Source: Antedon mediterranea
Taxonomy: Eukaryota > Echinodermata > Crinoidea > Comatulida > Antedonidae
Length of the DNA stretch: 64,000 nucleotides
Direction: 5' to 3'
NCBI RefSeq assembly: GCF_964355755.1
Contig: NC_092673.1
Span: 36,128,473 to 36,192,472 of the forward strand
Part shown: piece after piece, positions 1-51,700 of the stretch
How positions within the stretch are numbered: position 1 is the stretch's first letter
Layout of the letters: the number at the start of each line of letters is the position of its first letter
The notes under the pieces: generated by a model
The model's database searches: none
What the model was told of the DNA's origin: nothing
Seen by the model: the letters and a program-made list of their open reading frames with translations, nothing else
Position numbers and translations under genes: made by a program

Positions 1-3000
1 TGTTTGACATTATATGGATTATATGTTTTATGTTGATAGGTGTTTGACATTATATGGATTATATGTTTTATGTTGATAGGTGTTTGACATTATATGGATT
101 ATATGTTTTATGTTGATAGGTGTTTGACATTATATGGATTATATGTTTTATGTTGATAGGTGTTTGACATTATATGGATTATATGTTTTATGTTGATAGG
201 TGTTTGACATTATATGGATTATATGTTTTATGTTGATAGGTGTTTGACATTATATGCATTATATGTTTTATGTTGATAGGTGTTTGACATTATATGGATT
301 ATATGTTTTATGTTGATAGGTGTTTGACATTATATGGATTATATGTTTTATGTTGATAGGTGTTTGACATTATATGGATTATATGTTTTATGTTGATAGG
401 TGTTTGACATTATATGGATTATATGTTTTATGTTGATAGGTGTTTGACATTATATGGATTATATGTTTTATGTTGATAGGTGTTTGACATTATATGGATT
501 ATATGTTTTATGTTGATAGGTGTTTGACATTATATGGATTATATGTTTTATGTTGATAGGTGTTTGACATTATATGGATTATATGTTTTATGTTGATAGG
601 TGTTTGACATTATATGGATTATATGTTTTATGTTGATATGTGTTTGACATTATATGGATTATATGTTTTATGTTGATAGGTGTTTGACATTATATGGATT
701 ATATGTTTTATGTTGATAGGTGTTTGACATTATATGGATTATATGTTTTATGTTGATAGGTGTTTGACATTATATGGATTATATGTTTTATGTTGATAGG
801 TGTTTGACATTATATGGATTATATGTTTTATGTTGATAGGTGTTTGACATTATATGGATTATATGTTTTATGTTGATAGGTGTTTGACATTATATGGATT
901 ATATGTTTTATGTTGATATGTGTTTGACATTATATGGATTATATGTTTTATGTTGATAGGTGTTTGACATTATATGGATTATATGTTTTATGTTGATAGG
1001 TGTTTGACATTATATGGATTATATGTTTTATGTTGATAGGTGTTTGACATTATATGCATTATATGTTTTATGTTGATAGGTGTTTGACATTATATGGATT
1101 ATATGTTTTATGTTGATAGGTGTTTGACATTATATGGATTATATGTTTTATGTTGATAGGTGTTTGACATTATATGCATTATATGTTTTATGTTGATAGG
1201 TGTTTGACATTATATGGATTATATGTTTTATGTTGATAGGTGTTTGACATTATATGGATTATATGTTTTATGTTGATAGGTGTTTGACATTATATGGATT
1301 ATATGTTTTATGTTGATAGGTGTTTGACATTATATGGATTATATGTTTTATGTTGATAGGTGTTTGACATTATATGGATTATATGTTTTATGTTGATAGG
1401 TGTTTGACATTATATGGATTATATGTTTTATGTTGATAGGTGTTTGACATTATATGCATTATATGTTTTATGTTGATAGGTGTTTGACATTATATGGATT
1501 ATATGTTTTATGTTGATAGGTGTTTGACATTATATGGATTATATGTTTTATGTTGATAGGTGTTTGACATTATATGGATTATATGTTTTATGTTGATAGG
1601 TGTTTGACATTATATGGATTATATGTTTTATGTTGATAGGTGTTTGACATTATATGGATTATATGTTTTATGTTGATAGGTGTTTGACATTATATGGATT
1701 ATATGTTTTATGTTGATAGGTGTTTGACATTATATGGATTATATGTTTTATGTTGATAGGTGTTTGACATTATATGGATTATATGTTTTATGTTGATAGG
1801 TGTTTGACATTATATGGATTATATGTTTTATGTTGATATGTGTTTGACATTATATGGATTATATGTTTTATGTTGATAGGTGTTTGACATTATATGGATT
1901 ATATGTTTTATGTTGATAGGTGTTTGACATTATATGGATTATATGTTTTATGTTGATAGGTGTTTGACATTATATGGATTATATGTTTTATGTTGATAGG
2001 TGTTTGACATTATATGGATTATATGTTTTATGTTGATAGGTGTTTGACATTATATGGATTATATGTTTTATGTTGATAGGTGTTTGACATTATATGGATT
2101 ATATGTTTTATGTTGATAGGTGTTTGACATTATATGGATTATATGTTTTATGTTGATAGGTGTTTGACATTATATGGATTATATGTTTTATGTTGATAGG
2201 TGTTTGACATTATATGGATTATATGTTTTATGTTGATATGTGTTTGACATTATATGGATTATATGTTTTATGTTGATAGGTGTTTGACATTATATGGATT
2301 ATATGTTTTATGTTGATAGGTGTTTGACATTATATGGATTATATGTTTTATGTTGATAGGTGTTTGACATTATATGGATTATATGTTTTATGTTGATATG
2401 TGTTTGACATTATAATGACATTATATGTTTTATGTTGATAGGTGTTTGACATTATATGGATTATATGTTTTATGTTGATAGGTGTTTGACATTATATGGA
2501 TTATATGTTTTATGTTGATAGGTGTTTGACATTATATGGATTATATGTTTTATGTTGATAGGTGTTTGACATTATATGGATTATATGTTTTATGTTGATA
2601 GGTGTTTGACATTATATGGATTATATGTTTTATGTTGATAGGTGTTTGACATTATATGGATTATATGTTTTATGTTGATAGGTGTTTGACATTATATGGA
2701 TTATATGTTTTATGTTGATAGGTGTTTGACATTATATGGATTATATGTTTTATGTTGATAGGTGTTTGACATATGGATTATATGTTTTATGTTGATAGGT
2801 GTTTGACATTATATGGATTATATGTTTTATGTTGATAGGTGTTTGACATTATATGGATTATATGTTTTATGTTGATAGGTGTTTGACATTATATGGATTA
2901 TATGTTTTATGTTGATAGGTGTTTGACATTATATGGATTATATGTTTTATGTTGATAGGTGTTTGACATTATATGCATTATATGTTTTATGTTGATAGGT

Positions 3001-4118
3001 GTTTGACATTATATGGATTATATGTTTTATGTTGATAGGTGTTTGACATTATATGGATTATATGTTTTATGTTGATAGGTGTTTGACATTATATGGATTA
3101 TATGTTTTATGTTGATAGGTGTTTGACATTATATGGATTATATGTTTTATGTTGATAGGTGTTTGACATTATATGGATTATATGTTTTATGTTGATAGGT
3201 GTTTGACATTATATGGATTATATGTTTTATGTTGATAGGTGTTTGACATTATATGCATTATATGTTTTATGTTGATAGGTGTTTGACATTATATGGATTA
3301 TATGTTTTATGTTGATAGGTGTTTGACATTATATGCATTATATGTTTTATGTTGATAGGTGTTTGACATTATATGGATTATATGTTTTATGTTGATAGGT
3401 GTTTGACATTATATGGATTATATGTTTTATGTTGATAGGTGTTTGACATTATATGGATTATATGTTTTATGTTGATAGGTGTTTGACATTATATGGATTA
3501 TATGTTTTATGTTGATAGGTGTTTGACATTATATGGATTATATGTTTTATGTTGATAGGTGTTTGACATTATATGGATTATATGTTTTATGTTGATAGGT
3601 GTTTGACATTATATGGATTATATGTTTTATGTTGATAGGTGTTTGACATTATATGGATTATATGTTTTATGTTGATAGGTGTTTGACATTATATGCATTA
3701 TATGTTTTATGTTGATAGGTGTTTGACATTATATGCATTATATGTTTTATGTTGATAGGTGTTTGACATTATATGGATTATATGTTTTATGTTGATAGGT
3801 GTTTGACATTATATGGATTATATGTTTTATGTTGATAGGTGTTTGACATTATATGGATTATATGTTTTATGTTGATAGGTGTTTGACATTATATGGATTA
3901 TATGTTTTATGTTGATATGTGTTTGACATTATATGGATTATATGTTTTATGTTGATAGGTGTTTGACATTATATGGATTATATGTTTTATGTTGATAGGT
4001 GTTTGACATTATATGGATTATATGTTTTATGTTGATAGGTGTTTGACATTATATGGATTATATGTTTTATGTTGATAGGTGTTTGACATTATATGCATTA
4101 TATGTTTTATGTTGATAG
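1..4118. repeat. 40-bp minisatellite, about 103 copies, carrying a splice acceptor
   Basis: Near-perfect head-to-tail 40-bp units fill the window from base 1, so the array continues off the left edge. Each unit contains ATGTTTTATGTTGATAG followed by GTGTTTG. In the last unit this is the real 3' splice site and first seven bases of the MAK16 exon at 4119. Variants are few: G to C in TATGGATT (for example near 256, 1056, 1176 and 4096), GATAGG to GATATG (for example 638, 918, 1838), one irregular unit at 2401 and one shortened unit at about 2763. The array lies in a MAK16 intron. Confidence 0.97.
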
Positions 4119-5377
4119 GTGTTTGCTTTTTGTACATGAAAACAATAGAGAGAGCAGCATTTCCATCAAAGTTATGGGAAAAGGTTAAGTTATCAAAGAA
4201 TTATGAGAAGGCCTTACAACAAATAGATGATCAGCTACGATACTGGCCAAATTTCATCAAACACAAGTGTAAACAGCGTTTTACGAAAATCACACAATAC
4301 TTGATACGTATGAGAAAACTTGTTTTAAAAAGACAGTAAGTTAAAATTGGATCAAACTGAACAGAAAATGATGTGCAAATTTCAATGGTATAATAGCAAA
4401 AAATTAGAATTAGTAACAACATGTAATAATATATATGATAAATAACATTTAGGTTGTCTATAAAGCTAAATATAGTCAGCCCAATTAAAACCAAGCATGT
4501 ACTGTAGTCCATATCATAATATAATACATTTTGTCGAGTTCACATGATTTCAGATATTTTGATATTTTTACAGGAGAAAACTTGTTCCAATAAGCCGTAA
4601 AGTAGAAAGACGAGAGGAACGTAGGGAACAAAAGGCTTTGGTTGCAGCACAGCTTGATAATGCTATTGAGAAAGAGCTCTTGGAACGACTTAAAAAAGGA
4701 ACTGTGAGTATTATTGTTCCGTGTGTAGGCCTGCTTTTTATATTTCACATAGAACACCATGTATATGTGTGACTGGTCTTTTTTTGCAGTATGGCGATAT
4801 ATACAATTTCCCAGCACATGCATTTGATAAGGCGTTAGATGCTCAGGAAGAAGATGAAAGTGAAGTGGAAGGAGAACAAGAAGAAGAATATGAGGAAGAG
4901 GTAATGTCATTTAATCGCCTTTCTTGGATCTTTACACCTGAATATATGTTTGATAGTGTTAAGAAATTAGAAAAGTTGAGTTGGATTAACATTGATAAAA
5001 ATGCTTGTTACTTTAGGAACCTGAAGTAGAATATGTGGCAGAAGGTGACTTTGAAGAAAGTGATTTAAGTGACTTTGAGGTGAGTTGGAACACATGATAT
5101 AATAATAATCATTTTATTATTAATTTGTTATGTAAGTAGATGCAGATGCATTTGGTATTTAAAAGTATATTCAATTTGTGCATAAATCAATATTTGTATT
5201 TTTTTGCAGGAGATGGACAAACTCCACAACATAAGCGATGATAATTCAAGTAGTTCAGATGAAGAGCAAAAGAAAAGTGTGAAAAAAATGTTCAAAAAGA
5301 AAAGACCACGAGTTGAAATAGAATATGAAAAAGAACTTGATCAGCCATCAACATCAAAACTAACTCTAAAATCATGA
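4119..5377 (+). CDS. MAK16: MAK16 ribosome-biogenesis factor, 3' part (5 exons)
   Basis: MAK16 is a nucleolar protein of 60S subunit assembly, in yeast a partner of Rpf1. Exons I can splice are 4119-4335, 4574-4703, 4790-4900, 5017-5079 and 5210-5377 (stop TGA 5375-5377). All have GT-AG borders and continuous frame, giving 228 residues plus a split first codon; the human protein is about 300 residues. Recognised stretches are [16 protein letters not shown] at the start, [63 protein letters not shown] and [17 protein letters not shown]. An acidic region ([14 protein letters not shown], then DLSDFEEMDKL) and a basic C-terminal tail follow. The zinc-binding N-terminus must lie left of the window, beyond the minisatellite. 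A poly(A) signal AATAAA is at 5572. Confidence 0.95.
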
Positions 5378-5571
5378 ACATTTATTAAATACTGTAGTTG
5401 ATATTAGTTAATACAATGGCATCGATTGTGAGTATTTTGAGTGTTCCAACTTCCATGTTCATAAACCAATCTGTATTGTGAAAATCAATGTAATCTAAGT
5501 CTAATTTCTTTAGTCCAGACCCTTTTCTTTTGTTGAAATTACTCCCATTTGACCATGAATCTTAATTTTTC

Positions 5572-5577
5572 AATAAA
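5572..5577 (+). terminator. Poly(A) signal of MAK16
   Basis: AATAAA lies 195 bases after the MAK16 stop and about 300 bases before the ADISSP start. No other gene claims it. Cleavage site not determined. Confidence 0.55.
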
Positions 5578-5759
5578 ATAATTTAAGTACAGCATTACAC
5601 ATGTTGCATACCATAATTAAAGTTAGCAGGATGGGGACGAAAGCAAAGATGAATTGTTCATATAATTGTAGCTTTTCTCGTAAAGATCTTATCAAGGCTG
5701 ATTGACAAGTCTGACTTATCTTTTTTGATATTAAAAAACAAAGTAGTGTACTGTATTTG

Positions 5760-5878
5760 CTACCGCCCTCTACAATTAAATAAGTGAACCATCGCTCGTA
5801 CGACGCGTCTCTCGAGAGCTGATGAGAGGAGAGAGAGAGCTGAGAGAGAGAGGGGGATGTTGATGAACAGTCAAGAAT
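5760..5878 (+). promoter_or_regulatory. ADISSP promoter / 5' leader with GAGA tract and overlapping uORF
   Basis: A CTCF-like word (CCGCCCTCTA, about 5763) is followed by a GC-richer stretch (TACGACGCGTCTCTCGAG) and a GA-repeat tract at 5816-5856. An ATG at 5857 opens a 15-codon reading frame (stop 5902-5904) that overlaps the main ATG at 5879 out of frame. If the transcript starts upstream of 5857, this would be a start-codon-overlapping uORF. TSS not known. Confidence 0.45.
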
Positions 5879-8815
5879 ATGGCGGAGGCGAATACATTGA
5901 GTGATCAGTCTCCGACAAAATCAACGGTTGCTGGTGTAGTAAAGAGAGAAGGTAGAATTTATTATTTATGGTTAATTATTTAACAATTAAGGATACTGTA
6001 GCTCAGTTTTATTCGCCAAGGCTTAATCTGGCTATTCATTTTTAAAGATACCAGCTAGGCCAAGGCTATCGCGCCTAGACTAGTAGGAGGGCTAGGCTAG
6101 TTAGGCCAAGGTGCCTAGCTAGCGGGGAGTATGATCGGTTGAGCCGCCGGTAATTTCTATGAAACGCCCAGTGCGTCTTTTAGGACATTTCGCGTAGTGA
6201 TTAGAGTGGTTAGTAGTGTCCTAGTAGTACATAAGTTCATGCTTTAGGTTTGTTGTGTCATGAAAATAAATTACATGTTTATGTCATTTTTGGCTAAAAA
6301 CTATCATTTTTGGTGATGTTTTAGACCTTATATTTTGGAATCTACATACAAGTCAGATTTGTAATTGTAATATTTAATAATATATACTAAAATCATGATA
6401 TATAAACTTTTGAATATAGAACTTCTATTGAATAGAAACAAGCACCGGCGTTTCATAGAAAATAACGTTTTTATGGCGGCGGCTCAACTTGGCCTAATCT
6501 GGGCCTAGCCTAGTAGGCCTTGCTAGTATTTTTTGTTGTTTAAAAAGACCCACCACATTCACCGGGGAAATCCCGCTTTTTACCCTCGGGCCTGGCTAGC
6601 TACCTACTTGCTAAGTAGGCTAGAGTAATGGTGGTACCGTAGTATTGAGTATGATCCATGATGGGTCATGATGGTATGCCTAGCCTAGTAGGCCTAGTCT
6701 AGTGTAGTATTAGGCCTAGTGTAGTAGGCTCAGCCTAGGCCAGGTAGAAATTTAAAGCTCTAGGACAGGTTAGACTTTAATAATTAGTGTTCAGTCAGTG
6801 TAGAGTAGAGTAAGCGGCTACAATACATACAGCTGCCCATCTATATATATTTTTAATTATGATATTGGATAACTAACACCCAAACAACAATTATTGGCTC
6901 TTCCTCTACTAAACCTCTCCTAGATGCTACTCTTAATTTTTTATTATTTTAAGACAATACGCCATTTTCACAAAAAGAATGACATCTTTGATCGATGACA
7001 TACAATGCTTAGTCTTAATATTAGTAAAAGAGATAAATATTTTGGCACATATGGCGTTTCATACGTATACTACTTGATTTTAGATACTCCGTTTGGGAAA
7101 ACACGTACAAATCACATGGTTTGACACCAAGAATCCTTGGTGCATACGATTATCCAGTTGACTAGTTTCAGCCACATGCCATTGGCTACTCACTCGTATG
7201 CAGTTTTAATATTCATATTTCAGAATTTCAAAGACTCAACAACTAAGACGATGCGCATGCGCTATGTTACGTTTAGACAGTATGTGTTGGGTACATTGAT
7301 GAACGTTTCTAAAGGCTAGAAATGATTGATCGGATTTTTCCCAAGAACATGAAAACTCGTCTAAATATGATAGGCTGCCTTCTCCGCAAATCAAACATTG
7401 AATGGATCATTTATTATGTGGAGATAATTTGATTTAATTCCCACCCAGCCCAGACCCTGTCCCTGTGTGGTAGGTGTGTAGCTCTGTTGTGTACCGCTGG
7501 TGGTATGTACCTTATTGGCTTTTTATTTGGCAGGTCATACGTACCAGTTGAGTAGGCCTACGAAGGAAGCCTAGGCCAGGACTAAACAATTAGGCCTAAT
7601 AAACAAAACAACTTGGCAACACGATTTTATATTTTAACAGTTGTTCAGTCTCGATCGTACATTCAGCACTGTACGTACTCAATCTTTTTCATTTTGAAAC
7701 AAAATGATCATTGGTTGATTCGAAATCCATACATACCGCCCGCCCCATATAGCCAAATACGGTAACGATAACTTAGGTCTTTCTTATCGGATGTTTGCAG
7801 TCTGCAAATCGATTTCTATATGTGTTTCACAAGTCAGTATTTTCAGACAAAAATCGAAATAAAAACAAATAAATAAAATAATTTGTTTTTACTTAAGAAC
7901 ATTTTAAATACAGTAATTTGTTTTCTCATAAGACCCTCTGTACAGGAATTTTTAAATTAACATGGTGTCCTGAAATTTCCTGAAAACGCTGTTGGTTACG
8001 CTTCTCGATTGAATATGTAGTGCTAACTACCAGCAGCAGCTATTAATAATGGTCGTACCACGGTATCTGAAACAGGGAAGCGAGGCTGTACTTCTTGATT
8101 TTGCACAAATCTGAGTCCAATTTTATTATTTATTATTATTTTGCCATATTTATAAATATAAATTGTTTTTATAAAACAGACATATATATGTATATATACC
8201 GTTAAAATGTTATTTTTATTAAATAATCCAATGTTAGGTAAGAAAGGTCGACTACGAACTACGTCCAAGGTTCGCTTTCCAGAAGATGTGCACGAACCAG
8301 ATATTTTAGTATCCCGAGAGAATAATGGTGCAATCGATATAAATGTGGGTTTTTTACTAAGTCAACACAAGTATGAAGCTAGTTTTACTATAGAAGATTC
8401 TATTAAAGATGATATTGAAGTGCCTACAGATCAACAAATATTGCTCAGAGTTCGTAATATCTATACATCTCAAAATGGTATGCACTTGTTTTATTTATTT
8501 CCCTTTATGTGTTTTGTTTTTAATTAGTTTTCTGTCTACTTCATGTCTAGTTCAGATGGTCAGTATGAACCGGACATGGTTGCCAACATGATTGCTCACT
8601 ACTTTGCGTATTTTATCCGTTTATTTTATATTGACACTGATAGATTCGTCTATTTGTTATTTAAATATTTTTATATAGTTTATTATATATCATTGTTGTT
8701 ACTTTGGGAGTACGGAACCTGAACTCTTGTTATAGTGATTAGGTTCACTTTTAGGTTCCTACCTACTCCCTTAGTTTCTGTGTTTTTGTTTGTTTGTAAC
8801 TGGTTTTTGGCAATA

Positions 8816-8848
<33 letters not shown>

Positions 8849-11800
8849 TTCATTAAATTGTATCCAACAAAAGAATCGCTTGGCAAAAATGATACGTCAA
8901 ACATCTCTGGTTTCCTTAAATATAAAAAAAAAGTTGGGTCCTGATGCAAATGAATATCTCGACCTGAAATATGGCAAACTAAGTTTTAATGTCACTCCTG
9001 CCAGCCTCAAATAAATAATGTCTGCATCCAGTAAAAACATCTCAGCTAAGATGCCAGTAAAGCGTGGTTTCCAGTCGACGTAAGACTTGCTTCCGCTTAC
9101 GATTGCGTCGTTTTCTTACGATTACGCTTGCGTTCCGATCAGTTGACCAAAAACTAACGTCGACACAAAATTGTCATAATCACGTTGGACCGCACAAATT
9201 TAGATTATTACATGTGCTGATTCCGTCGTTATGAAAGTTGAATTTATCGCAAAGTCTGTCCTTCTTGCCCTTACGTCGAGTTGAAATTTTTCCTTGCGAT
9301 TACAACACATATGACGTGATAACAAGAAATGATTTCTGATTGGCTCATAAATTCCGCGCGAATAGAGGAGGCCATTTTCTAAAACATAAACAGTGCAGTG
9401 AGGCTATGACGTATTTTTTTACATAATCTTAATTAAAATGTTTATCAGTTCTTCTTTTGATAAGTTGCCGACAAATTTAATCTTTTTATTCTGAGAATTA
9501 TTTTATGAGCGGCTTAAACAATCCCATGATTTTACCCACCCAGGAGAGCTTGTTTATCGGAGTTTTACTTTTGTGTCTGCCGCCTTTTGTTTTGATTTTC
9601 TTTGTACCACCCTGCATGGCTTATTGTTTATGATTAGACTGTTGTTATAATTGTCTGTTCTTCGAATTATTTTTTATTCCTGATGATGATGATCTTTATT
9701 TGATGAACGTTGAATATCATGACTTGCCTACGATGTTGTTTATATACAGTACAGTTTATCTATTAGGTTTTTTTTACCCGGTTTTCATTTCTTTTTTTTA
9801 TAAATAGATAATTCAAATGATGTAGGCTAATAATTATTTATTTTCATCATCAAATTATCATATGCCTATAAATTATGTTTAGATTCAAGCAAACACTACG
9901 GTGAATTTAATAAATATATATTATTAATTTATTACCCAACATACCTTCATCATACAATTAAAACAAAATCATTACGTAATTTTTCCCCACCTACTTTTGA
10001 ATGCAAACTATATGCCAGGTGAAACGTATTGTTATCCTGATGATCCTGATGATGACACTGTTCTCTAACATTTTATTATTATTAATTTAGTCTGTCTGTG
10101 TGTATTATTTTTACCCATTATATCGTATTTTTACTATGTTTATATAATTATAATAAGTAACAAGCAAGACAATTTTGTATAGTTCTCACATCCATTTTGT
10201 ATTTCATCCACCTAAATTATTACATTCTATCACGAATTGAACAACATCGTGGTTCAGGTTTATTTACGTATCATTTATTGTCAACAATTCTTATATACGG
10301 TACTTTCTACTTTCTTTCACCTTTCTAAGCTTTGACCTTCTTGCCAACGTCACATAATCCTCGTCACTGATTAGCTGGTTCTTACGATCCTTGCGCTTAC
10401 TCTTACAAAAGTTGACTTCAAGCGTAAGCGGAAGGGTATAAAATCGCATCGTAAGACATGTTCATCCAGAAATTCACCGGTTTCCTGTCGAATCGTCGAA
10501 TATCGACGTAACAGACGGAAGCTTCAGTCATTGGTTTCCTGTCAAACACTTGTACTACGGCGATTTCTACTTGCGTTATGTCGTTTTGACATTTAGCTTT
10601 TTTCAACCGGTTTCCTGTCGATTTTCAATTTCCAATGTAAAAACGACGCAATCGTAAGAAATTCTAATTTATTAATTTTCTTACTTAACTAGTTTGTTTT
10701 GCAGTGTATTAATATGTTAAAACTAAAACATTGAGACTGAATGAAAATTATAATTTAAAAAAAAGTGTATCATAGGGCAGCCTTTATTTTTTGGATCATA
10801 AATAAAGTGTATCATAGGGCAGCCTTTATTTTTGGATCATAAACAAAGTGTATCATAGGGCAGCCTTTATTTTTGGATCATAAACAAAGTGTATCATAGG
10901 GCAGCCTTTATTTTTGGATCATAAATAAAGTGTATCATAGGGCAGCCTTTATTTTTAGATCATAAACAAAGTGTATCATAAGGTAGCCTTTATTTTTGGA
11001 TCATAAATAAAGTGTATCATAGCAGGGCAGCCTTTATTTTTGGATCATAAATACACATGAAATGCAAAAGATGTATGTCTGATATTTTCTTTTGGAAGAT
11101 TTATAAATTGTTTATTAAAACAAAATCAAGTTGATTCTCATACTTTCCTTTGCCATGTAGCACAACACAATATATCGTATAATAATTCTACAGTAAAAAG
11201 GCAATGTTTTCTGTCCACTGCCTCATGGTAATTTATACTGATAGTAATTCATAAATGAATTTGATTAATATACTAAATGCATAAATACATAACCAAGTAC
11301 TGTACAGTGTCATAGTTGATAAAACATGTATTGAATATACATGTATACTTATACTATTTTGGATAGCATATTTAGATGTGTTGATATAGTTTGGTTCTTA
11401 TTCTTTATAATTTTGTTTTCTTTTTGTTGCCATTATTGGTCGTTGCCATTATTTGTTTATGACCTAGTGGGGAAATTGGCTTTGCATGCTATATGTGGTT
11501 AGTACGTACCAAAATGTACGAATATATTCACATCATGTAGACTAATTATTCCAAAATTGTATTTTGCTCTAGGATGTGGACACGATATTGTAATGGAGAT
11601 CCACGCTCATAAAGAGGGAGTATGGTCTGAACAGATTCAGTTATCAAGCAAATTGGACAACAACAACAAAGTGATCTTAGTTGTTCATGCAAGAGTCATG
11701 GGTATATATCTTTTTATATCAATATACTGTATCTTTTTATATCAATATATTTTTAATATGAACACTTTTTTAATCAACAAATAAAACAAAGCAGACTATT

Positions 11801-11970: not shown

Positions 11971-12189
11971 AATCAACACAACCAGATAATACAGGCCTAG
12001 CTATGTTGTAATATGACAATAATGGACGTCAGTAGCAGTCTTTACTAATTCATTATTGTCTGAATTACATTCCAAGACATTTTATTATGTTAAATTAATT
12101 AGTACAGACAGTTTTAGTAGGAATGTGAATAGTGGATGTACTATCAGGTTTGATTCAGATTTTATTTGTCCCAGAAAGTGGATGATATT

Positions 12190-12890
12190 CATTCACAGTG
12201 GATACAGTAGAGTTGTATCCATGTCACCAGTGATAGTCCAGTGACATGGTGACATGGATACAGTAGAATTGTATCCATGTCACCAGTGATAGTCCAGTGA
12301 CATGGTGACATGGATACAGTGGAGTTGTATCCATGTCACCAGTGATAGTCCAGTGACATGGTGACATGGATACAGTGGAGTTGTATCCATGTCACCAGTG
12401 ATAGTCCAGTGATATGGTGACAGTAGAGTTGTATCCATGTCACCAGTGATAGTCCAGTGACATGGATACAGTAGAGTTGTATCCATGTCACCAGTGATAG
12501 TCCAGTGACATGTCACCATGGATACAGTAGAGTTGTATCCATGTCACCAGTGATAGTCCAGTGACATGTCACCATGGATACAGTAGAGTTGTATCCATGT
12601 CACCAGTGATAGTCCAGTGACATGGTGACAGTAGAGTTGTATCCATGTCACCAGTGATAGTCCAGTGACATGGATACAGTAGAGTTGTATCCATGTCACC
12701 AGTGATAGTCCAGTGACATGTCACCATGGATACAGTAGAGTTGTATCCATGTCACCAGTGATAGTCCAATGACATGGTGACATGGATGCAGTAGAGTTGT
12801 AGCCATGTCACCAGTGATAGTCCAGTGACATGGTGACATGGATACAGTAGATTTGTATCCATGTCACCAGTGATAGTCCAGTGACAGAAA
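12190..12890. repeat. Hairpin-forming tandem array downstream of ADISSP
   Basis: About 12 units of roughly 43-60 bases. The fullest unit holds a 14-bp perfect inverted repeat, GGTGACATGGATAC then GTATCCATGTCACC, around a loop of about nine bases (AGTAGAGTT). This is followed by CAGTGATAGTCCAGTGACAT, which pairs again with ATGTCAC. The array starts about 220 bases after the ADISSP stop and could be in its 3' UTR; no poly(A) signal was seen before it. Confidence 0.93.
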
Positions 12891-14990: not shown

Positions 14991-15005
14991 AAACTCCCAG
15001 CAGAT

Positions 15006-15208
15006 TTAGAGAATGCCACATTTGCCCTTATCCTTGTAATGATTTTCACCGCTTGGTGGGATTCCAGTCAAAAGCATATCCTTATCACGATGTTCCACAC
15101 AGTATTCACGTAGACTGGTTGCAGCTTGTGATACAAGCAAGCGTTTGATTGCCGCCTCACGTTTTAGTTGTTCGACAACTTTCTTCATATTCTGGACACC
15201 AGTCATGG
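15006..15208 (-). CDS. G protein gamma subunit, GNG5/GNG10-like (last exon holds the whole CDS)
   Basis: The CDS runs from ATG at 15206 to TAA at 15006, 66 residues, typical for a G gamma subunit. It is preceded by a 3' splice site (TTTTAAACAG then CC ATG), so a 5' UTR exon lies further right. Family hallmarks are NMKKVVEQLKREAAIKRL (helix 1), VSQAATSLREYC (helix 2) and DMLLTGIPP, then a C-terminal CaaX box CGIL. The final Leu predicts geranylgeranylation and membrane anchoring of a G beta-gamma dimer. The usual NPF loop is replaced by NHY. N-terminally it most resembles vertebrate GNG5 (AMKKVVQQLR). A paralogue lies 1.5 kb upstream on the same strand. Confidence 0.9.
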
Positions 15209-16440: not shown

Positions 16441-16469
16441 GAGGCAATTAAGTTCTTGTCATCAATGGG

Positions 16470-16600
16470 ATCACATCTTTCACATAATGGAATTATTCAG
16501 TGAATGCCTCTCTGATGAGGACGGTTAGTAGAGGGACCACATCTTTCACATAATGGAATTATTCAGTGAATGCCTCTCTGATGAGGACGGTTAGTTAGCA
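16470..16600. repeat. 66-bp direct repeat, two copies
   Basis: CACATCTTTCACATAATGGA and the following bases up to GATGAGGACGGTTAG recur at 16472 and 16538. It sits in the 3' flank of the second G-gamma gene. Confidence 0.85.
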
Positions 16601-18309: not shown

Positions 18310-36268
<17,959 letters not shown>

Positions 36269-37358: not shown

Positions 37359-40300
37359 ATGGCTGCATTGGGTGAGCTGCAAGGGGCGGGCCTGATTGGT
37401 ATGTAATTCTAAATACTTTGTGTAAATTATTGTATTTTGTTAAGCTAGATCTAATTGTCGGCCTACTATACTACGGATTAGGCCAAGTAAGTTGAGCCGC
37501 CGACAAGTTGAGCCGCCGCCAGAAAAACGTTATTTTCTATGAAACGCCAAATGCTTACTTTCGCCGGTGCTCGTTTCTATTTATTTAATAGAAGTTCTAT
37601 TTATATTAATTATTAGATATAACGATGTATATTCCAAAGTTTATATATCACGGTTTTTAGTATATATTATTAAATATTATAATTAAAGAGAAATAATTAT
37701 GAATATCTGACTTGTAGATTCCAAAATATAAGGCCTAAAACGTGACCGAAAATGATCGTTTTTAGCCAAAAATGACGTAAACATGTTGCCCCCTTTAGGC
37801 GGCAGTTGTATGAACTAGGCCTACTCCATTTTTCGGTAAAATAATTGCATAAAATCACCGTTTTTTAGTAAAATATTTTGTGTATTAACATTGTAAAATT
37901 CAATAAAATATGATATTAAAAGATAGTAGATAAAAAATAATAATTATTTAACCTCATTCGAAGAGTATCAATACTCTATTATATTAGTCCTGAGAGACAA
38001 CATGATTTTACGCGAGAAAAATATTATGGAGTGCACTGGACTTGAAAGAATTTGAAAGATTTGAAAGATTAAAAACAATTAAATTATTAAATATGACTAC
38101 TTTCCTTTGCTGTGTTGTTATGGCGGTTCAAACCAACAAAATTATAGTATGTAATTATTATTTATTTTCATGACACAATAAACCTAAAGACCATGAACTT
38201 ATGTACTAGGACACCCCTCTATCACTACGCGAAATGTCGTAAAAGACGCACTGGGCGTTTCATAGAAATTACCGGCGGCTCAACTTGTCGGCGGCCCAAC
38301 CGGTCATATCCCTATACTACTACAGGGTAGGCCTAGTAGGACCCAGACAGTAGGCCCTAGGCCTAGATAGAGATAGCATATAGCCTAGATAGGGCCTACT
38401 AAGCCCTAGCCTAGAGGTAGGCCAAGGGTTGGGCTGTCCCGCCCAACCCTTGAATTGTCCGGGTGTCTCGAAAACAGAGACCCGAGACCCAGGGTCTGTG
38501 TTTCCGAGAAAATCTCGAAAACAGAGACCCCCACTAAAACGTCTCAATATTACGTAATATAGGCCTAGGGGGTCTCTGTTTTCGAGAAAATCTCGAAAAC
38601 AGAGACCCCCACTAAAACGTCTCAATATTACGTTATATAGGGGGTCTCTGTTTTCGAGTTTTTCTCGAAAACAGAGACCCCACTAACTAAAACGTCTAAA
38701 TATTACATTATATAGTGGGTCTCTGTTTTCGAGTTTTTCTCGAAAACAGAGACCCCCACTAAAACGTCTCAATATTACGTTATATAGGGGGTCTCTGTTT
38801 TTGAGTTCTCGAAAATAGAGACCCCCACTAAAACGTCTCAATATTACATTATATAGGGGGGTCTCTGTTTTCGAGTTTTCCTTGAAAACAGAGACCCCAC
38901 TAAAACGTCTCAAAATTACGTTATATAAGGGTTCTCTGTTTTCGAGAAAAACTCGAAAACAGAGACCCCCACTAAAACGTCTCATTATATTGGGGGCCCG
39001 GTCTCTTTTTTCGAGATTTCCCGAGACCCCCTAATATAATTCCTGTTTATTAAGAGTGTTGCAAATACCCACCAACGAGCTTGGTCATAAATTATTAAAA
39101 CCCAACTTTTATCGCAAAAACCGTGAATTTATGTTTATTTATTTATCAATTTATTTATTTTTTTTTAATTCATTTCTTTTTTAAGGCTCGCCCAACACAA
39201 TATATTTGTCTTCATCCTCCAGTCTGCCTCAAAGTCTGACCTCATATCATTTTGTTATTGCATTGTACGTTTATTATCTTTTATGCTTGTAAATAAATGT
39301 TACGAAACTAGTGTCAGCTTTTGAAATAATCTCCCGCTTTTTAGCTTCTAAAAGGCACAACATGCATTTATACATCTTATTCTAGGACGTCGACCTTGTA
39401 TTCCAAAATGACAGTCTTTTCACACGCGTTCAAGAATTCATCAATCTCTTCTTATCGTTGCGGCATGTTCTTTGATCGGCATATCAGTTACCGTTTATTA
39501 CTGATGATACGTCATTCTGTGATTTTGAGACGTTTTAGTGGGGCCCCCTATATAACGTAATATTGACGTAATATTGAGACGTTTTAGTGGGGGTCTCTGT
39601 TTTCGAGAAAAACTCGAAAACAGAGACCCCCTATATAATGTAATATTGACACGTTTCAGTGGGGGTCTCTGTTTTCGAGAAAAACTCGAAAACAGAGACC
39701 CCCTATATAATGTAATATTGACACGTTTTAGTGGGGGTCTCTGTTTTCGAGAACGTCCCCCTATATTACGTAATATTGAGACGTTTTAGTGGGGGTCTCT
39801 GTTTTCGAGATTTTCTCGAAAACAGAGACCCTGGGTCTCGGGTCTCTGTTTTCGAGACACCCTGAATTGTCCCGCTTTCAAAATATTTTATGATGAAAAG
39901 AGTAGAGACCAGATTAAAAAGCTATCTGGTAATACACAGGGCCCAGCCTACTACTGTACTAAAAACTAGGCGTTTAATCCGGCCTGATAATATATCATAC
40001 ATAAAAATAGAGTATATAACTCTCTCTGTATGTTCATATTCATATTACAGAAAAGGATACCAATGATGATGTTTTGTGGACGTGGTCTTATCCAGTGGTA
40101 ACGGCTGATTTTCGTGATGTTCTTCTTTATAAGTGTCCGTTAACTTCTGATTGCCCTTATACACAATTCATCTTTGGTCAACACAAACATAAATGGTTTT
40201 ACATAGCCACTCAGGATGTTGCCAATCATCCAACATTAACCAAAGTAAGCAGTCTTGTTTTCTAGTATTGTTTATGTTTTTATAATTTAATTGCATTTTG

Positions 40301-42305: not shown

Positions 42306-44140
42306 TATCGAAACAACAATTTGAAGTCACAACATGTAAAAGTCGCAAATATTAATAGACTAAATTAATAGATAGAATTAATAGTAAATTATTGAATTAA
42401 TAGTAAATTATTGTATAAATTGATTGGGTGTTTATGATGCTGGGGAGATGCAGCGACATGGTATATCCAGACCCTATATTAAATGGGGCACTCAATTACA
42501 CATTTAAACAAATAAAAAAGGACTAAAATAATAGTACTGTATATTTCATTTAAATGGTTGTTAATACTAATAGTAATTACAAAAATTGATCTTTATAATA
42601 AAATATAATAATGACTTTGACCAATGCATATACAGTTTCAGAGTTACTGTTACTCTACTTATAGTGCAGACCTCCCAACTCTACTGATCATTTTTCCTGG
42701 ATATTGGATAAATCACAACAAAATATCCCAAAATGTATTATTAGGCTCTAGAGATTAGATAACATACTATCGGTCAATGAAATTACTAATGTATATAAAT
42801 GCAAAATTATAATATTGGTGAAAGGCTTTCTTTGTTCCTAGTTGCAAACGAGTAATATTGTCAGTTTTGTCTGTTTGGGCAGAGGCCTAAACATACATCA
42901 TATTGCTTATTAAATAAAATAGGTTTCTAAATTAACTACTGTATATACTATATTTTGCTTTGAATAGAAATTTATTTTTGATCTTGACCCTATGAAATGG
43001 TGTCACGGTATTCAGCCCATGGGTAATGAATGAATTCCTTTCCTATTATCCAAATACCAAACATTGCCCATAAGATTCGCTATATCACAAGATATCAATG
43101 CTACTTTCTCAAGATTAAGGAACCAGCTTTGGCCACGTCATAAGTTTCTTACCCCGGCGCTCCAATTAGACAAATAGGAAATGAAATCTGCTGGACATGA
43201 TAATGTGCAATATTATCTAAATGTTTGCATGTGAGTTTCCCAAATGAAAATTATAAATGCTTGTGTTCCTCGGCAGTGGAAAGAATATCTGTGTTGAATA
43301 TATGATAAAATTAAGACAAGTTCGTTTGACATCACAATTTGCCGAAGTAACTGAAGGAATTATACAACCTTTTGTTAAAAGACATTGGACCGACATGGAC
43401 ACTAATATATACAACACATTTCTAATTGTCAATAAATTCATTGATTGACATGATCTAAAATTTACCAAGCAAATTTGATGCAATTTTTGATAAAAACTGT
43501 ATTTTGTGAACTGAACTTTTATTGTATCTCTTTTAAATCAGAGGCACAGTCTCAATGAGATGTGCAACAAGTTTACAGTGAAAAATAATACATACACACT
43601 TAAATATAAATACAAAACAAGAAATTAGACATAAGAACAAAATTACAAAAAAAAAAATTTAAGAGAACTGAGACAGATTAAATACTAAGAAAATGAATAA
43701 ATTAAGTTTGAGAAGGAATTGTATTATATATAATCATTTCGTGTGTTCCAAGCCATGGTCAGAAAAATTTTACAATGTTTGTCGAAAATAATACTTGCTA
43801 ATTCGTATACATCATGGGTCAATTGATTTGGTGTAATTTTAAATTCATTATGGATTTCAAGGTCATCGAAGAATAAGTGGTATTTAAGATCTAGAGAGCT
43901 AGTAGTAAACAATTCCCAGAACATGGATAGATTATTGTTGTTATCACTTCTCATATTAATAATTGTCATATCTAGGGGGTATTTATTTGATTACACATGT
44001 ATTTCCATAATAATTACACCAAAAAATGCCTTACCCGAATAAACGCCTCCCTCGAATAAACTCGCCCTAAAATCCCCTTCCTGAACAATAAACCCAGCCC
44101 CTCCCCACTGGGCGTTTATTCGAATAAAACGGTAACATAT
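42306..44140. other. Intergenic region downstream of DENND10
   Basis: After the DENND10 3' UTR (AATAAA at 42511 and 42599) the sequence is AT-rich. Short open frames on both strands (for example 43257-43448 and 43217-43483, which overlap in antisense) have no recognisable family. No RNA gene seen. Confidence 0.45.
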
Positions 44141-44357
44141 ACAGCGCCCTCTAGCAGACTAGTCGTGTTGCTTAGCTCACTGCTCACACCACCAGCAGCA
44201 GAGCTTAGCACCACCTATTCTTTGCTCCACCACCAACCAGCTCCTGCCTGCAGCTGGCTGTTGTAATCGCTTGGGACGTTTGTACCGATTATCAATATTC
44301 AGATCAGTTATTAAACACTTATCAAAGTTTGTTTCCCCCAAATAACGATACACACAG
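44141..44357 (+). promoter_or_regulatory. Candidate promoter and non-coding first exon of the nuclear receptor
   Basis: A CTCF-like ACAGCGCCCTCTAGCAG (44141-44157) is followed by about 200 bases of CAG/CACC-rich, locally GC-richer sequence. This ends in a strong donor, ACACACAG|GTAAGC (donor at 44358). No long frame is open, so it would be 5' UTR. Joining it to the receptor is inference, supported by strand, by the lack of another gene between, and by the acceptor before the receptor's ATG exon. Confidence 0.4.
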
Positions 44358-44666
44358 GTAAGCCAGTTGAATAGAACTCTTTTACTGAATTTGTTTGTAC
44401 CAAGACAGTAGGCATTATAAATCGTAATGTAGGCTATGTGGTATATTTAATACTGTATATTAACAATAATAGTCAACTTAAACTCATGGTGGTGGAGTTG
44501 ACAACTCCCTAGTCTAACCGAGAAATATGTGCTTGCGGAATGAGAAGGATTACTTTATTGCCCATATTCTGTTTTCAGAATGCTCCCAGTTGAAACAACA
44601 ATTCTGTGTTATTTTTTGTATAGCCGACAAAACTTTTTAAGAATAATTAAAACAGGCTCAGGTAGT

Positions 44667-44688
44667 CCATGGAGGTATACCTCCATGG
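44667..44688. repeat. 22-bp perfect palindrome
   Basis: CCATGGAGGTA is followed directly by its reverse complement TACCTCCATGG, with no spacer. The flanks GGTAGT and AGTCCTACC are partly inverted too. Confidence 0.9.
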
Positions 44689-45029
44689 GTAGTCCTACCA
44701 TTATGATTGGGTATTATAATAATAATCTACATGATGTACAGTAGGCAAAAATTATAATAAATGTATACTTCAAACGAACCATACACAACCGAGATAAAGA
44801 TAAACCATATTGAAGAAAACCCCATCATCTTCGCTTTCTTGGCAGGCAGTGTAAACTACAGTGTGCACCTGTCTTGTACTTTATTGTGAATATAGCACAC
44901 CTTCTTAAAGGTTGAGAATCACAGAAAAAATCTTGTAATTTAATTATGATTTTACAGTTGTCTAGTTTCCATATTCCCACTGTTAAATTGTGAATTTGGA
45001 AAAACATAGATATTAACATAAATAAAAAT

Positions 45030-45195
45030 TATAGTTTGTTGATTATTGTATTTAAAGATAATTTAAATTAATAAAATACACTGGGGCACCATTGAGGTAA
45101 GACAACTCCCTAGTCTAACATAATTATGTTGATTATTGTATTTAAAGATAATTAAATTAATAAAATACACTGGGGCACCATTGAGGTAAGAAAAT
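45030..45195. repeat. Tandem duplication, two ~90-base copies
   Basis: TTGTTGATTATTGTATTTAA through ACACTGGGGCACCATTGAGG and TAAGA occurs at about 45037 and 45127. The phrase GACAACTCCCTAGTCTAAC also occurs once more at about 44499. Confidence 0.85.
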
Positions 45196-45299
45196 GATAA
45201 GTAACTGTAAATTTAATGTATATTTATTACCTGCGAATTGATAGGGATATTTTCAATGTATTGGCATGAATGGCTTTACAATGATGATCAGAAATATTA

Positions 45300-45425
45300 G
45301 TATACTGTTAATGTAGCTACGGGCCTGTATACTGTTAATGTAGCTACGGGCCTGTATACTGTTAATGTAGCTACGGGCCTGTATACTGTTAATGTAGCTA
45401 CGGGCCTGTATACTGTTAATGTAGT
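45300..45425. repeat. 27-bp minisatellite, 5 copies
   Basis: TATACTGTTAATGTAGCTAC then GGGCCTG is repeated; the last copy diverges into TAGTTTTCACCC. Confidence 0.93.
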
Positions 45426-45934
45426 TTTCACCCTTTTTTTTCATCCGAAAATGAATTCTGACAATCTTAAAAATTGTAAGAAGATGTATGCGTGCATTTT
45501 CATGCACTATGCACAGAGAACGATAGCCTAATAAATATTGTGTACAAACTCAATAAGTTATATTGCATGATAATGCATGACCTAATATAAAGCAGCCATT
45601 ATGTTACAAGTTGAAAGGGTTCTATCCTCATTATTGTACTTTCCTGTATGTATATACAATGTGAAATATAAGAAATACATCTGTCATTTAAATAGGTTTA
45701 ATTAAGGTTATTTACACCACAGTGTGAAAGGCTAAATTCAGGTCAGACTGGTTTCACATTCACTTTTTGCAAAGCTTAGAAAGGCCAAATAGTGTGAAAC
45801 ACATCCTGGGTGGCACAAAAGATAAACTGTAGACAATGTTGGTAATATTTCATGCCCAATAGGCAATTATACAAATAGGGGTCAATTCACACAAAGCCCT
45901 GCTTTCATGCATCTTCCTTCCGTCCACAATTTTC

Positions 45935-46514
45935 TAGTTTCTTGTAACTTGGTGGATAACCACCCCTGATACGGCCAAAATATTGCAACAGTTTGTTTCT
46001 TGTAACTTGGTGGATAACCACCCCTGATACGGCCAAAATATTGCAACAGTTTGTTTCTTGTAACTTGGTGGATAACCACCCCTGATACGGCCAAAATATT
46101 GCAACAGTTTGTTTCTTGTAACTTGGTGGATAACCACCCCTGATACGGCCAAAATATTGCAACAGTTTGTTTCTTGTAACTTGGTGGATAACCACCCCTG
46201 ATACGGCCAAAATATTGCAACAGTTTGTTTCTTGTAACTTGGTGGATAACCACCCCTGATACGGCCAAAATATTGCAACAGTTTGTTTCTTGTAACTTGG
46301 TGGATAACCACCCCTGATACGGCCAAAATATTGCAACAGTTTGTTTCTTGTAACTTGGTGGATAACCACCCCTGATACGGCCAAAATATTGCAACAGTTT
46401 GTTTCTTTTAACTTGGTGGATAACCACCCCTGATACGGCCAAAATATTGCAACAGTTTGTTTCTTGTAACTTGGTGGATAACCACCCCTGATACGGCCAA
46501 AATATTGCAACAGT
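45935..46514. repeat. 58-bp minisatellite, 10 copies, each with a small hairpin
   Basis: The unit is GTTTCTTGTAACTTGGTGGA, then TAACCACCCCTGATACGGCC, then AAAATATTGCAACAGTTT, with a 58-base period and one base change (TGTAAC to TTTAAC near 46407). GGTGG-ATAA-CCACC can form a hairpin in each unit. The period is not a multiple of three, so the long overlapping minus-strand open frames cycle through all three frames of the same unit and are not genes. Confidence 0.95.
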
Positions 46515-46544
46515 AATGAAAATGAGGTTGTGAATTATACTTTG

Positions 46545-46825
46545 TACTATATTTGTTAGGGTTAGGATTGAGGCGTCCCTGAGAACACCCTTTATTTTGT
46601 CATGCTATGAGTAAAATATAGAACAATACCGTATTTTAGTGATTACAGAGTATCAAATCTATGTTTCACACTATAATCAATGTAAATAATATTCAATGCT
46701 CCTAACCCTAACCCCCCTAACCCTAACCCTAATATAGAACAATACCGTATTTTAGTGATTACAGAGTATCAAGTCTATGTTTCACACTATAATCCATGTA
46801 AATAATATTCAATGCCCCTTTGTTA
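46545..46825. repeat. 116-bp direct repeat separated by telomere-type CCCTAA repeats
   Basis: ATATAGAACAATACCGTATT ... AATATTCAATGC occurs at 46617 and 46732. Between the copies lies CCTAACCCTAACCCCCCTAA, then CCCTAACCCTAA. A GGGTTAGGATT fragment is just upstream (46558). Confidence 0.9.
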
Positions 46826-47130
46826 GCCTACATGTCATCTTTTTTGTGCTAAAATTGTAAAAAGTAAAGAAAAAAAAAATCAAATCATACTGTAGATCTA
46901 AGGGAGATGTCATGAGCGTAACATTATATAATAGTTAACATACTATTGGCCTGATTTTGATACAAGATGGAAGCATACTATAGTACAATGTATATATTGT
47001 AGATCACAACATACACCACTCACATTAAAAACAATGACGTAGGTCATTTAAAATTTTCATGGGTGAAATGCGATAAACAATTGTTCTGCTTAAAAATAAC
47101 AATGTGGCATTTTGTTTTGTTAATTATTTT

Positions 47131-47182
47131 TCAGATTTAATGCCTTTCAGATTTAATGCCTTTCAGATTTAATGCCTTTCAG
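47131..47182. repeat. 16-bp direct repeat, 3 copies
   Basis: TTTCAGATTTAATGCC is repeated three times, then TTTCAGAGC. Each copy contains TTTCAG, an acceptor-like word. Confidence 0.85.
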
Positions 47183-47916
47183 AGCTAAAAATAATAAGGT
47201 TCTTGGCATACAAAAACTGCAAGACCAATTTGTTTACAAAGTGGGCGGAGTTTGTATGTTGCATACATGTTTAAATATCATTGTGAAAAAGTGTGAAGCT
47301 TGATATTCCTACAGTATAGACAAGATGACTCATTAAACAACATTTATGTCAAATGTACAAACATCAAGAACATGTTTAATTTGACATAATGTTAACATGA
47401 CATCAGAACATTGGTAGCTATTTTTAAATGTAAATTTTATAATAAAATTGATTGTAATCACAGAGTGTGGCATATTTCATTCATTGGTTGAGTATCTTTG
47501 TCAAGACAACAAACATACTGAACAACATACATAGTAGTTCAGCCTATTCCAGCTGTTATTTGTAGTTCTCATCTCATTTACCATCCTACTCTATAAAGGT
47601 TTACATTATATTTTCATGCCGGAAATGTTTGACCCAGATTCTCACAAAAGGTTAAGACTTGACCAATCATCAACCAATCATTCAATTCCTGATCACCAAT
47701 TTAGTTATTAATTATTAATAAGCACATTCATTGTTTTTAAATAGTTATCAATCAGTCTCAATTAATTGTTCAGTTATCTGTTTTTAGATAATTCATTTGA
47801 GTTTTATGAAAAATTATATTAAAATTATAAAATACTTAAAGATGTCCTTTTATTTTTGTTTTAAATATTCTATTGTAATAATGCATAATAGTTATTCACT
47901 ATGACCAAACATTTGA

Positions 47917-47967
47917 TAGGGTTAGGGTTAGGGTTTGATAGGGTTAGGGTTTGATAGGGTTAGGGTT
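47917..47967. repeat. Interstitial TTAGGG telomere-type repeat
   Basis: GATAGGGTTAGGGTTAGGG is followed by two TTTGATAGGGTTAGGG units. This matches the metazoan telomere repeat TTAGGG, mixed with a degenerate GATAGGG unit. Confidence 0.88.
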
Positions 47968-48256
47968 AACAAAATTGTTTAATTTAAAGCAAAACATTCA
48001 AAATGTCTGTCAGACAAAGTTGTTTTGGCTGAATTTAGGCGTTTATTTAGTCTTTTTGGAAATGATATCATTTTTGCTTTTTTTTTGTGGAAGTGAATAG
48101 TTATATTAAAACACCAAAATGGTAAACAATCATTTTTATATACTATATTGCCAGCTCTCTGAAAGCTACAGCTTATATTTAATTGTGAGTTCTACAAAAT
48201 ATTATTGATATTTAGTTTTTGTCAATGATATTACATTTTTATTATTTTTGTTTCAG

Positions 48257-48352
48257 ATTTTTATACACGAAATGCAGAAATTAATTTTCAAAATGTGACT
48301 TTACAAGGAATGAAGAGGATTACGTTAAATAACACTAGAAAGGCCAGGAATG
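48257..48352 (+). other. Possible 5' UTR exon of the nuclear receptor
   Basis: A good acceptor (TTTTTGTTTCAG, ending 48256) and a fair donor (GGAATG|GTAGAG at 48353) bound a 96-base block without a long frame. It is compatible with a non-coding exon between 44357 and the ATG exon, whose own acceptor is CATGTTTTAAG, ending 48754. No expression evidence. Confidence 0.25.
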
Positions 48353-48767
48353 GTAGAGTAACCCTAAATCTCTTTCCGAAATCCTAAAAGTTTCTACAGT
48401 TGGCCTACCATTGCAGAATAGTAAAAGTAAACTACAGTAGGCCTACCATTGCAGAATAGAGAACTACATAACATTAAAACAATTTGTATAAACTAAAACA
48501 ATTAAGGAAAATTAAAATACCGTAATGTTGATTAAACAATGAAAAATAGGATTTTTTTAAAAGAAAGAAACGGCAGCAAAATTAGTACCTTGTCTTTCAC
48601 AATATTGTAAAATTGCTGACATATTAATCATAATGAATATTTATTGAAGTTGAATATTCATGAGGAGAAGTTATTAGGTGAAAAGTGATTGATGATAGAT
48701 ACAGGCATCTCGTTGTTTGATCTCACCTTCAACATATGGTTTTCATGTTTTAAGACCAAAAGTTACA

Positions 48768-51700
48768 ATGTCTACAGCATTGATTATGCCAGGTAAGACA
48801 ACAATATTTATATTTTTTTATTATGGTCCTGTTTCTGCTGCCAAAAAATAACTGGTTACCGTGTTAATACTTTAACCCCAGATTCTTGGCAGCAGAAACA
48901 GGACAAATTAACGATTAAACACCAAAATGATTGTCGCCATTTAACTGGTTATCGCTGTGCAACTTTTAGCTGAATGATGGTTATTTGATTGACAGTTGAT
49001 GGACTGTCTGATCACTTTGGGTCTTGGGTCATTTTAACTTTTTCTGTTAACAACCAACCACAAATTTAAACAGTTTGGGGAGCAGAAATGCGGTCGGCCT
49101 AAAAATTATAATTTTGAAATAAATGGTTTATTTTAACACTATTTTTATTCTATACTTATATTTTCAAACTATGAGCTCAATGTAATTTCTTTTTGGATAA
49201 CAAAATTTGAAGACCCTATGTGAAAAATATTATTTAAGTTGGTACAAATACAATGGATTTAGAAATAGTAATAGCAAGGAATTGTAATAGTGTGCACAGA
49301 AAAAAATGATATCTTGATCAACATTGTTAGAAATTTTGAATTGTTGGGTCTAGATTGAACTAAGATTTTGTATGTGACCAAGTTAAAATTGTGTAAAAAC
49401 CCAAACTTGTGACTAGTTTAGAAGTTAATAAATTGAGCATTGTTCATGATTAAACAATGATTTTGGTTAAAAATAATTGTCCCCCCCCCCCTTTTTTTTG
49501 TAATTGTAATATTTATTGCCATCCAAAGAAAAAAAAGTTGACAGATCAAACAATTTGTACAATTGAAATTTTGTTTTAATTTCACATAATAATAAAATAA
49601 TAATAATTGGATCCAAAAAATAAATATTTACCTGAAAAACTAATTTAAAGCAAAAAATAGTCAACGGGAAGTCAATGGGTTTCTTGTTGAATTCAATAAA
49701 CATTTATGTTGTCTTTTTATAAGTGAAAAGATCAACTTTATTAAAAACTGTGAAATATTGTAGGCTATTCAAATTATAATTTTTTTAATTTTTCATGTTT
49801 TCGGGGGACAATGCATCTTTAAATAGTGAAAAATGTGAGTAGCACATTGTAACAGCATTTGTTTTCCTACTTTTCAATGTTATTGAGATAGTCAATGTGT
49901 CAATGTGTTTCTTTTTTGGGGACTGCTCATTTAAATACAATATTTACGGTACCAGTTCCTAAATTTATAGTAATCTATTTATTTTTTTAACACTTTAATT
50001 TCACACTATAACAAAAATGATAGTCTATTTGATAATTTGCCTATATGTTTTTTACTTTTTATATCAATTTTTGTAAATTAAAACTTAAATAAAATAAAAT
50101 ACTGTAGTTAACTCAGAGAAATAATTCTGGAATTTTAGTAAGATAAGCATGCCAACCACTAAAAGTACAATTCCATCAATTATATAAATTTTTATCTTAA
50201 ATCTTATAGTTTTTTTAAAAACACTTAAAGGTATAATTAACTAATTTGTTGATCGGCCAAGCAAATTCTTTTTACATAGAGTGTTGATGATCTATACATA
50301 CATTACGTTATGAATGTGATACTCTGTACAGTCTTTCACCGTTGACCGAATGACCTGCAGACCTAATACAGCTTGTAATTTTATCACTAATTTTACATTA
50401 CAATGTTTATAATAAGGAAGGATGCTGGTAATAGTTTGTATGTTACATTCTTAACATAGAAACTCCTACTGCAAACTGAAATGGAATGGCCCTAATTTAT
50501 CCCAGTCAGTATGGGCTTATCTTTGTTTATTTTAGCAATAGTTTGAAGTGCCATAGATGGATAATTTACTGTGTTTATAGATAGAGATGGTCCAAGGTTC
50601 AGTGACTGTTTCAGTATTGTAGGCCTGACTTGTGATGTGTCTGTCTAGATTGGTAGTTAGCTAAACATAGCAAAGTTGTTAATTATAATAAATTTACATG
50701 ATTTAAAAATTGTCAGAGGAGGAAATGTTGCAATTACTGGAAAGTGTTGTTGTTAGAAGTGAAAGTCCAGCACTCCAGTTGAGTAAGTACTGTATTTGGG
50801 TGTCATTGATTTCTCCAACTTGTTTTACAGTCAATGTGTGAACTACTCTTGTAACAGTATGTACATGAGTATAAGTACTGTATTTTGGGTTTCATTGATT
50901 TCTCCAACTTGTTTTACAGTCAATGTATGAACTACTCTTGTAACAGTATGTACATGAGTATAAGTACTGTATTTGGGTGTCATTGATTTCTCCAACTTGT
51001 TTTACAGTCAATGTATGAACTACTCTTGTAACAGTATGTACATGTTCCTACTACTGTAGTAGTAGGCAGATGGCCTGTCATCTCATGTATTTTTGTAGAC
51101 ATTCAACTTTATGCTAATTTGTGAATTATATATTAGAACTAATTATACTAAGTGGTTACAAAAATAAATCTTTATCTGAGGATTGTTTTACAGTACTGTA
51201 GTAAGCATGGCTAGTCCTTATTTTGTAACTACTGTATACAATATTGTAGGGCAACTTTAAACAATATCTTAGTAATGTGCATAGCTACACTCATGCTTTT
51301 TGTGAATTTGTCTATGTTTTTGCTATAAGGACCCCATTGCCCAAAGCTTTTTAGCTTTATGGGTAATCCTTGGTATGTTGATTGTACCGAATAAAACAAA
51401 CAAAAACAAACAAACTTACTTTAAAGTATATTGAAATGTCTTAAACTCATTTTATATGAATTTTTCTTTGAGCCTGATACTTTAGAAGATGTACACACCA
51501 ACCTCACACCTACATGCCTGGTGAACAACATACTGTACACACCAACCACACACATGCGGCTAGCCCGGTGAACAACATACTGTACACACCAACCACACAC
51601 CTACATGCCGGGTGAATAACATACTGTACAAACCCACCTCACACCTACATGCCCGGTGAACAACATACTGTACACACCAACCTCACACCTACATGCCTGG

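Follow-up and report, generated by a model that had tools for sequence, protein, structure and literature searches.

Tandem arrays at splice junctions in Antedon mediterranea genes: siting close to chance, none within exons, and rows of decoy splice sites

Tandem duplications of exon–intron boundaries, termed mirages, have been described in amphioxus in the genes for Adh3, globins (BflGb6 and BflGb9 among them), troponin C and PGBD5. Two reports describe them as unstable in length and, according to their authors, as leaving splicing undisturbed (PMC3087553, PMC3902484). Boundary duplications were also linked to intron gain in a potato gene (PMC4974935) and in human paralogs (PMC2812944). A search directed at echinoderms returned no recognised case of a junction minisatellite among the matches listed.

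In their anatomy, the junction arrays described here fit the published amphioxus mirages. Both are minisatellite-like, straddle a donor or an acceptor, have units of 10–160 bp and carry AG or GT in many copies. A unit composed of exon plus adjoining intron sequence was found in 12 of 34 arrays, the nuclear-receptor array not being one of them, and AG or GT signals were present in the copies. What is unusual is how many copies there are, since some arrays contain about 80 to 103 decoys as good as the real site; the longest have 82 and 110 copies in the one assembly analysed, compared with 3 and 6 in the two amphioxus BflGb6 haplotypes. The arrays share with the Rogers model, as quoted in PMC3087553, a boundary-crossing tandem copy that carries splice signals. 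Unlike in that model, existing introns are lengthened here and no new intron is demonstrated. Human internal tandem repeats likewise include exon-edge minisatellites that alter gene structure, but in PMC2812944 they lie in recent segmental duplications, with about half in coding sequence, whereas here no array lies wholly in a coding exon.

The window, the whole stretch of 64,000 nucleotides that was analysed, occupies the final 64 kb of contig C4 in a genome of 354 Mb and 18 contigs, and it yielded 52 TRF rows. A tektin-1 exon of this genome was much closer to PDB 8snb, a sea urchin entry (182 bits), than to 7ung, the second-ranked chain (139 bits), and a tektin-3-like exon was closest to Tektin-3 chains of other entries, a neutral result for the affinity of the genome. 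Searches for the GFP family, COX1 and glycosyl hydrolase 6 gave no match here, negatives of little weight, as GFP and glycosyl hydrolase 6 matched none of the control genomes and COX1 matched 8 of 14. The DNAAF9 model has consistent phases and a single 1176-aa frame across its exons, with four Pfam matches (DAAF9_N, DAAF9, DAAF9_2 and CobW_C_DAAF9) and a GC donor in intron 17 (position 28276). The MAK16 product matched PF01778 and PF04874, and the nuclear-receptor gene matched PF00104. Exons 3–7 of MAK16 are inside the window, and exon 2 is just upstream, in piece L001. The other window genes, named by sequence resemblance, are presumably ADISSP/C20orf27-like, two G-gamma-like and DENND10-like. 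The gene models and the arrays, whose positions were observed directly, are as follows (window coordinates unless a piece is named).

18310..36268, + strand: DNAAF9, 33 exons, read by eye, with Pfam matches
4119..4335, + strand: MAK16 exon 3, read by eye, its frame joining exon 2 in L001
L001:9538 to window 4125 (1..4125 in the window), + strand: MAK16 exon 3 acceptor array, 40-bp unit, TRF
About L001 8620-9474 (widest 8560-9474), outside the window: MAK16 exon 2 donor array, 122 bp × 7
19621..19824, + strand: DNAAF9 exon 4 array, 50 bp × 4.1, containing the entire 29-nt exon and both splice sites
27386..27606, + strand: DNAAF9 exon 15 acceptor duplication, 2 copies, exon at 27537-27648, self-BLAST
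28793..29302, + strand: DNAAF9 exon 20 acceptor array, 102 bp × 5, exon at 29262-29408, TRF
29747..29839, + strand: DNAAF9 exon 22 donor array, 46 bp × 2, exon at 29695-29790, TRF
30544..30867, + strand: DNAAF9 exon 24 donor array, 118 bp × 2.7, exon at 30477-30635, TRF
31320..31851, + strand: DNAAF9 exon 26 donor array, 65 bp × 8, exon at 31280-31361, TRF
50784..51044, + strand: nuclear-receptor array, 89 bp × 3, adjoining a junction without spanning it, exon at 50717-50782

Eight arrays had been listed in the earlier note as spanning splice junctions. Seven of them do so (MAK16 exon 3 and DNAAF9 exons 4, 15, 20, 22, 24 and 26), while the receptor array is only adjacent to its junction. It starts at intron base +2, and since its first copy reads GTAAGT and the later copies read ATAAGT, it provides no decoy donors. 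The ladders of decoy splice sites that the same note had described are real, and MAK16 exon 3 alone has 103. The array of this exon begins 263 bases upstream of the window and has 109.7 copies in all, as counted by TRF. It contains 104 AG/GTGTTTG sites, namely the real acceptor and 103 decoys, and about six additional copies have AT in place of AG. The putative functional acceptor is at 4117-4118, within the last copy, and the first 7 bases of the exon are common to the repeat unit. All 103 AG-bearing decoys have a splice score equal to that of the real acceptor. Intron 2 of MAK16, about 5.2 kb long, consists almost entirely of two junction arrays, one on the donor side and one on the acceptor side, with about 63 bases outside them (about 99% array, calculated from coordinates).

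Decoy strength varied among the DNAAF9 arrays. All four donors in the exon 4 array scored 10.1, and the acceptors scored 6.5 in the first copy and 2.3 in the other three. The exon 15 duplication, with an offset of 109 and 87% identity, was found by self-BLAST and is absent from the TRF rows. In the exon 20 array, four decoy acceptors scored the same as the real one. The first donor of exon 22 is a strong GTAAGT (13.2), and the outer second copy is weak (4.6). The donor of exon 24 is retained in two copies, giving one decoy of equal score, and the exon 26 decoys kept the full score in 4/7 and were weakened in 3/7.

Outside the window, the sample comprised 15 pieces, each 10 kb long and surrounding dynein heavy-chain exons (PF12780 profile search, 67 matches), together with one extra piece 60–70 kb from the end of C2. 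Dynein exons were predicted from paralog homology and splice-site scores. An exon predictor without homology recovered 28 of the 33 DNAAF9 exons exactly, but DNAAF9 had also been its training gene and drew 70 predictions in all, so only homology-supported exons were kept. Four donor arrays were plain in dynein heavy-chain sequence, the exon borders of those in L006 and L010 being set by eye:

L006: dynein donor array, 42 bp × 2
L007: dynein donor array, 31 bp × 8
L007: dynein donor array, 28–33 bp × 3
L010, continuing with L033: dynein donor array, 68-bp unit, 82 copies

The L010/L033 array contains 81 GGTAAGTCAC sites, the real one among them, and in its scored part 32/32 decoy donors scored 12.1–12.2, like the real donor. 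The L007 decoys had the full score in 7/7. The second donor in L006 is weak (1.4 vs 7.1), and by eye it keeps the frame and is free of stops. Across all arrays, splice signals were weak or lost in the second donors of exon 22 and L006, the later acceptors of exon 4, 3/7 of exon 26 and about six MAK16 copies. No equal-strength decoy gave an open in-frame extension in the tested set, which excluded the exon 4 acceptors and the dynein copies beyond L010, and this was a direct observation. Two clusters of dynein matches, C1:2219609-2221073 and C1:2604668-2606143, are separated by 385 kb and have almost identical scores; they may have arisen by a recent duplication or be duplicated in the assembly. 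At window 19407-19456, in DNAAF9, and also in L002, L007, L009, L011 and L014–L016, there are about two repeats of a 21-bp motif that seems to belong to a dispersed element. Several predicted dynein exons overlapping it were discarded along with the motif.

The siting of arrays at junctions had been regarded in the earlier note as non-random, and the density of junctions had been overlooked. With arrays collapsed to one unit, DNAAF9 has 5.7 junctions per kb. For the comparison with chance, every array was reduced to roughly a single unit, which was then given random positions along the gene, itself collapsed in the same way. Arrays were dropped before counting when the period was below 10, when the TRF score was below 100 or when they lay beside the 21-bp element, as were dynein exon predictions with homology support below 30% or not longer than 30 bases, repeated exon predictions within the L010 array, arrays outside annotated exon spans and low-complexity runs in the receptor gene. 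Arrays in the other window genes, for example at 10758-11051, 12199-12886, 16467-16595 and 45300-46514, stand outside all counts. A first count over 18 loci gave 11/27 spanning arrays, with 10.9 expected when none were allowed in exons and 9.0 unconditioned. The full count added to this set the receptor gene, the exon 15 duplication and two 300-bp duplications in L004, which are 80% alike and may be something else.

In the full set of 19 loci, 12 of 34 arrays spanned a junction, compared with 9.6 expected under random placement anywhere (P=0.21) and 11.5 expected with exon interiors barred (P(≥12)=0.50). Junctions are so dense that roughly one random unit in three falls across one, which matches the observed share. 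With exon interiors barred, the observed and expected numbers were 12 and 10.6 for units only, 9/24 and 8.5 for arrays of at least 2.7 copies, 4/15 and 3.9 for the dyneins alone, 4/19 and 4.3 without DNAAF9 and MAK16, and 5/12 and 5.05 for DNAAF9 alone with TRF arrays only. The lowest tail probability, P=0.115, was obtained for units only under any placement (12 vs 8.7 expected), in a small sample of 34 arrays from conserved genes with partly predicted exons in which a modest enrichment would escape. An enrichment at junctions was not supported by this collapsed-unit test, in which observed and expected counts agree. Of 568 junctions, 13 (about 2%) lay in arrays, and 9 of the 13 were in DNAAF9 and MAK16. 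The arrays included 9 donor ends and 4 acceptor ends, an imbalance that is not a prediction of the random model and was reckoned not significant.

The alternative suggestion of the earlier note, that arrays are purged from exon interiors, was supported over all loci. No array lay wholly inside an exon (0/34 vs 6.2 expected, P=0.0008), and for DNAAF9, MAK16 and the receptor gene alone the result was 0/19 vs 2.5 expected, which is not significant (P=0.066). These counts against random placement were observed directly, as was the absence of arrays from exon interiors. Chance-level spanning together with this absence suggests that arrays arise at random and are then lost from the interior of exons. 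We therefore consider it very probable that they are ordinary minisatellites, born approximately at random in exon-dense genes, with those inside exons removed. Tandem duplication would yield minisatellites at roughly random positions within such genes. Where the duplicated segment crosses an exon edge, additional copies would pile up towards the intron. The copy nearest the exon, the last in an acceptor array and the first in a donor array, would join the exon body in frame, and the remaining copies would become decoy splice sites within the intron. Purifying selection would eliminate arrays wholly inside exons, since these alter the protein, and intronic and junction-spanning arrays would survive. 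We infer that the arrays originated by slippage or unequal exchange, that the exon-proximal copy is used in vivo and that decoy products decay.

A different reading is that splice junctions are hot spots where arrays form by way of DNA structures or repair tied to transcription or splicing. A transcription- or splicing-linked origin had been offered in the earlier note as a possible cause, and it is needless, since the spanning counts match chance. Some genes do carry several junction arrays (six in DNAAF9, two in MAK16), and the excess of donors points the same way, as do counts slightly higher than expected under placement anywhere. With exon interiors barred, however, observed and expected numbers were about equal in all tested subsets, despite the window having been chosen for its junction arrays, and we regard junction hot spots as improbable.

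It is less probable still that junction arrays are functional, with extra splice sites that buffer or tune splicing or aid exon selection. The full score kept by every scored decoy of MAK16 exon 3, the large dynein array and L007 would suit such a role, as would the stronger first donor of exon 22, but near-identical copies are also expected from recent expansion or homogenisation. The weaker decoys in exons 26 and 4 and the MAK16 copies without AG argue against it, the use of decoys would mostly introduce stops, and the position of the arrays is no better than random. That some arrays are assembly artefacts is similarly very unlikely: long, near-perfect arrays of 110 and 82 copies are difficult to assemble, but substitutions distinguish the copies in some of them (exon 26, MAK16), arrays of varied size occur at many loci, and for a 108-bp triplication in lancelet PGBD5 re-sequencing, according to the authors, spoke strongly against assembly error (PMC3902484).

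Random birth with purging of exon interiors reduces an apparent hot spot to a simple rule that is testable genome-wide. A more tentative proposal, which we think may well be wrong, is that junction minisatellites occur throughout the genome in this lineage, at about 2% of junctions and in some cases with about 80–103 matching decoys, that the spliceosome picks the exon-proximal copy on grounds other than the strength of the site, and that introns such as MAK16 intron 2 have grown almost wholly from their own two junctions. If so, growth from an intron's own splice junctions would be a route of intron lengthening that is seldom considered. Junction minisatellites may extend beyond amphioxus, and these natural ladders, in which as many as about 100 splice sites match, could reveal how the spliceosome chooses among equals.

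Arrays with a period of at least 7 cover 27.9% of the window, and tandem coverage is 5.0% in the 15 dynein pieces. Eight pieces 30–36 kb from other chromosome ends had a mean tandem coverage of 38% (range 0.7–87%), and the pieces beside the C2 and C4 ends had 13% and 24%, respectively. In humans, subtelomeres are enriched in VNTRs that have long, GC-rich units (PMC7608644). Position at a chromosome end may explain the density of arrays, in samples that are small, overlapping and unmatched in gene content. Five unselected pieces further inside C4 had 1% to 63% tandem sequence (mean 21%), and since interior pieces also reach 63%, an enrichment at chromosome ends is not established. No telomere repeats close the window, although it stops at the contig end. 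It does contain short interstitial runs resembling telomere sequence (CCTAACCC and TAGGGTT), located at 46701-46729 and 47923-47967. On either side of 39 kb, at 38492-38988 and 39568-39810, there are 72-bp repeats with a long palindrome.
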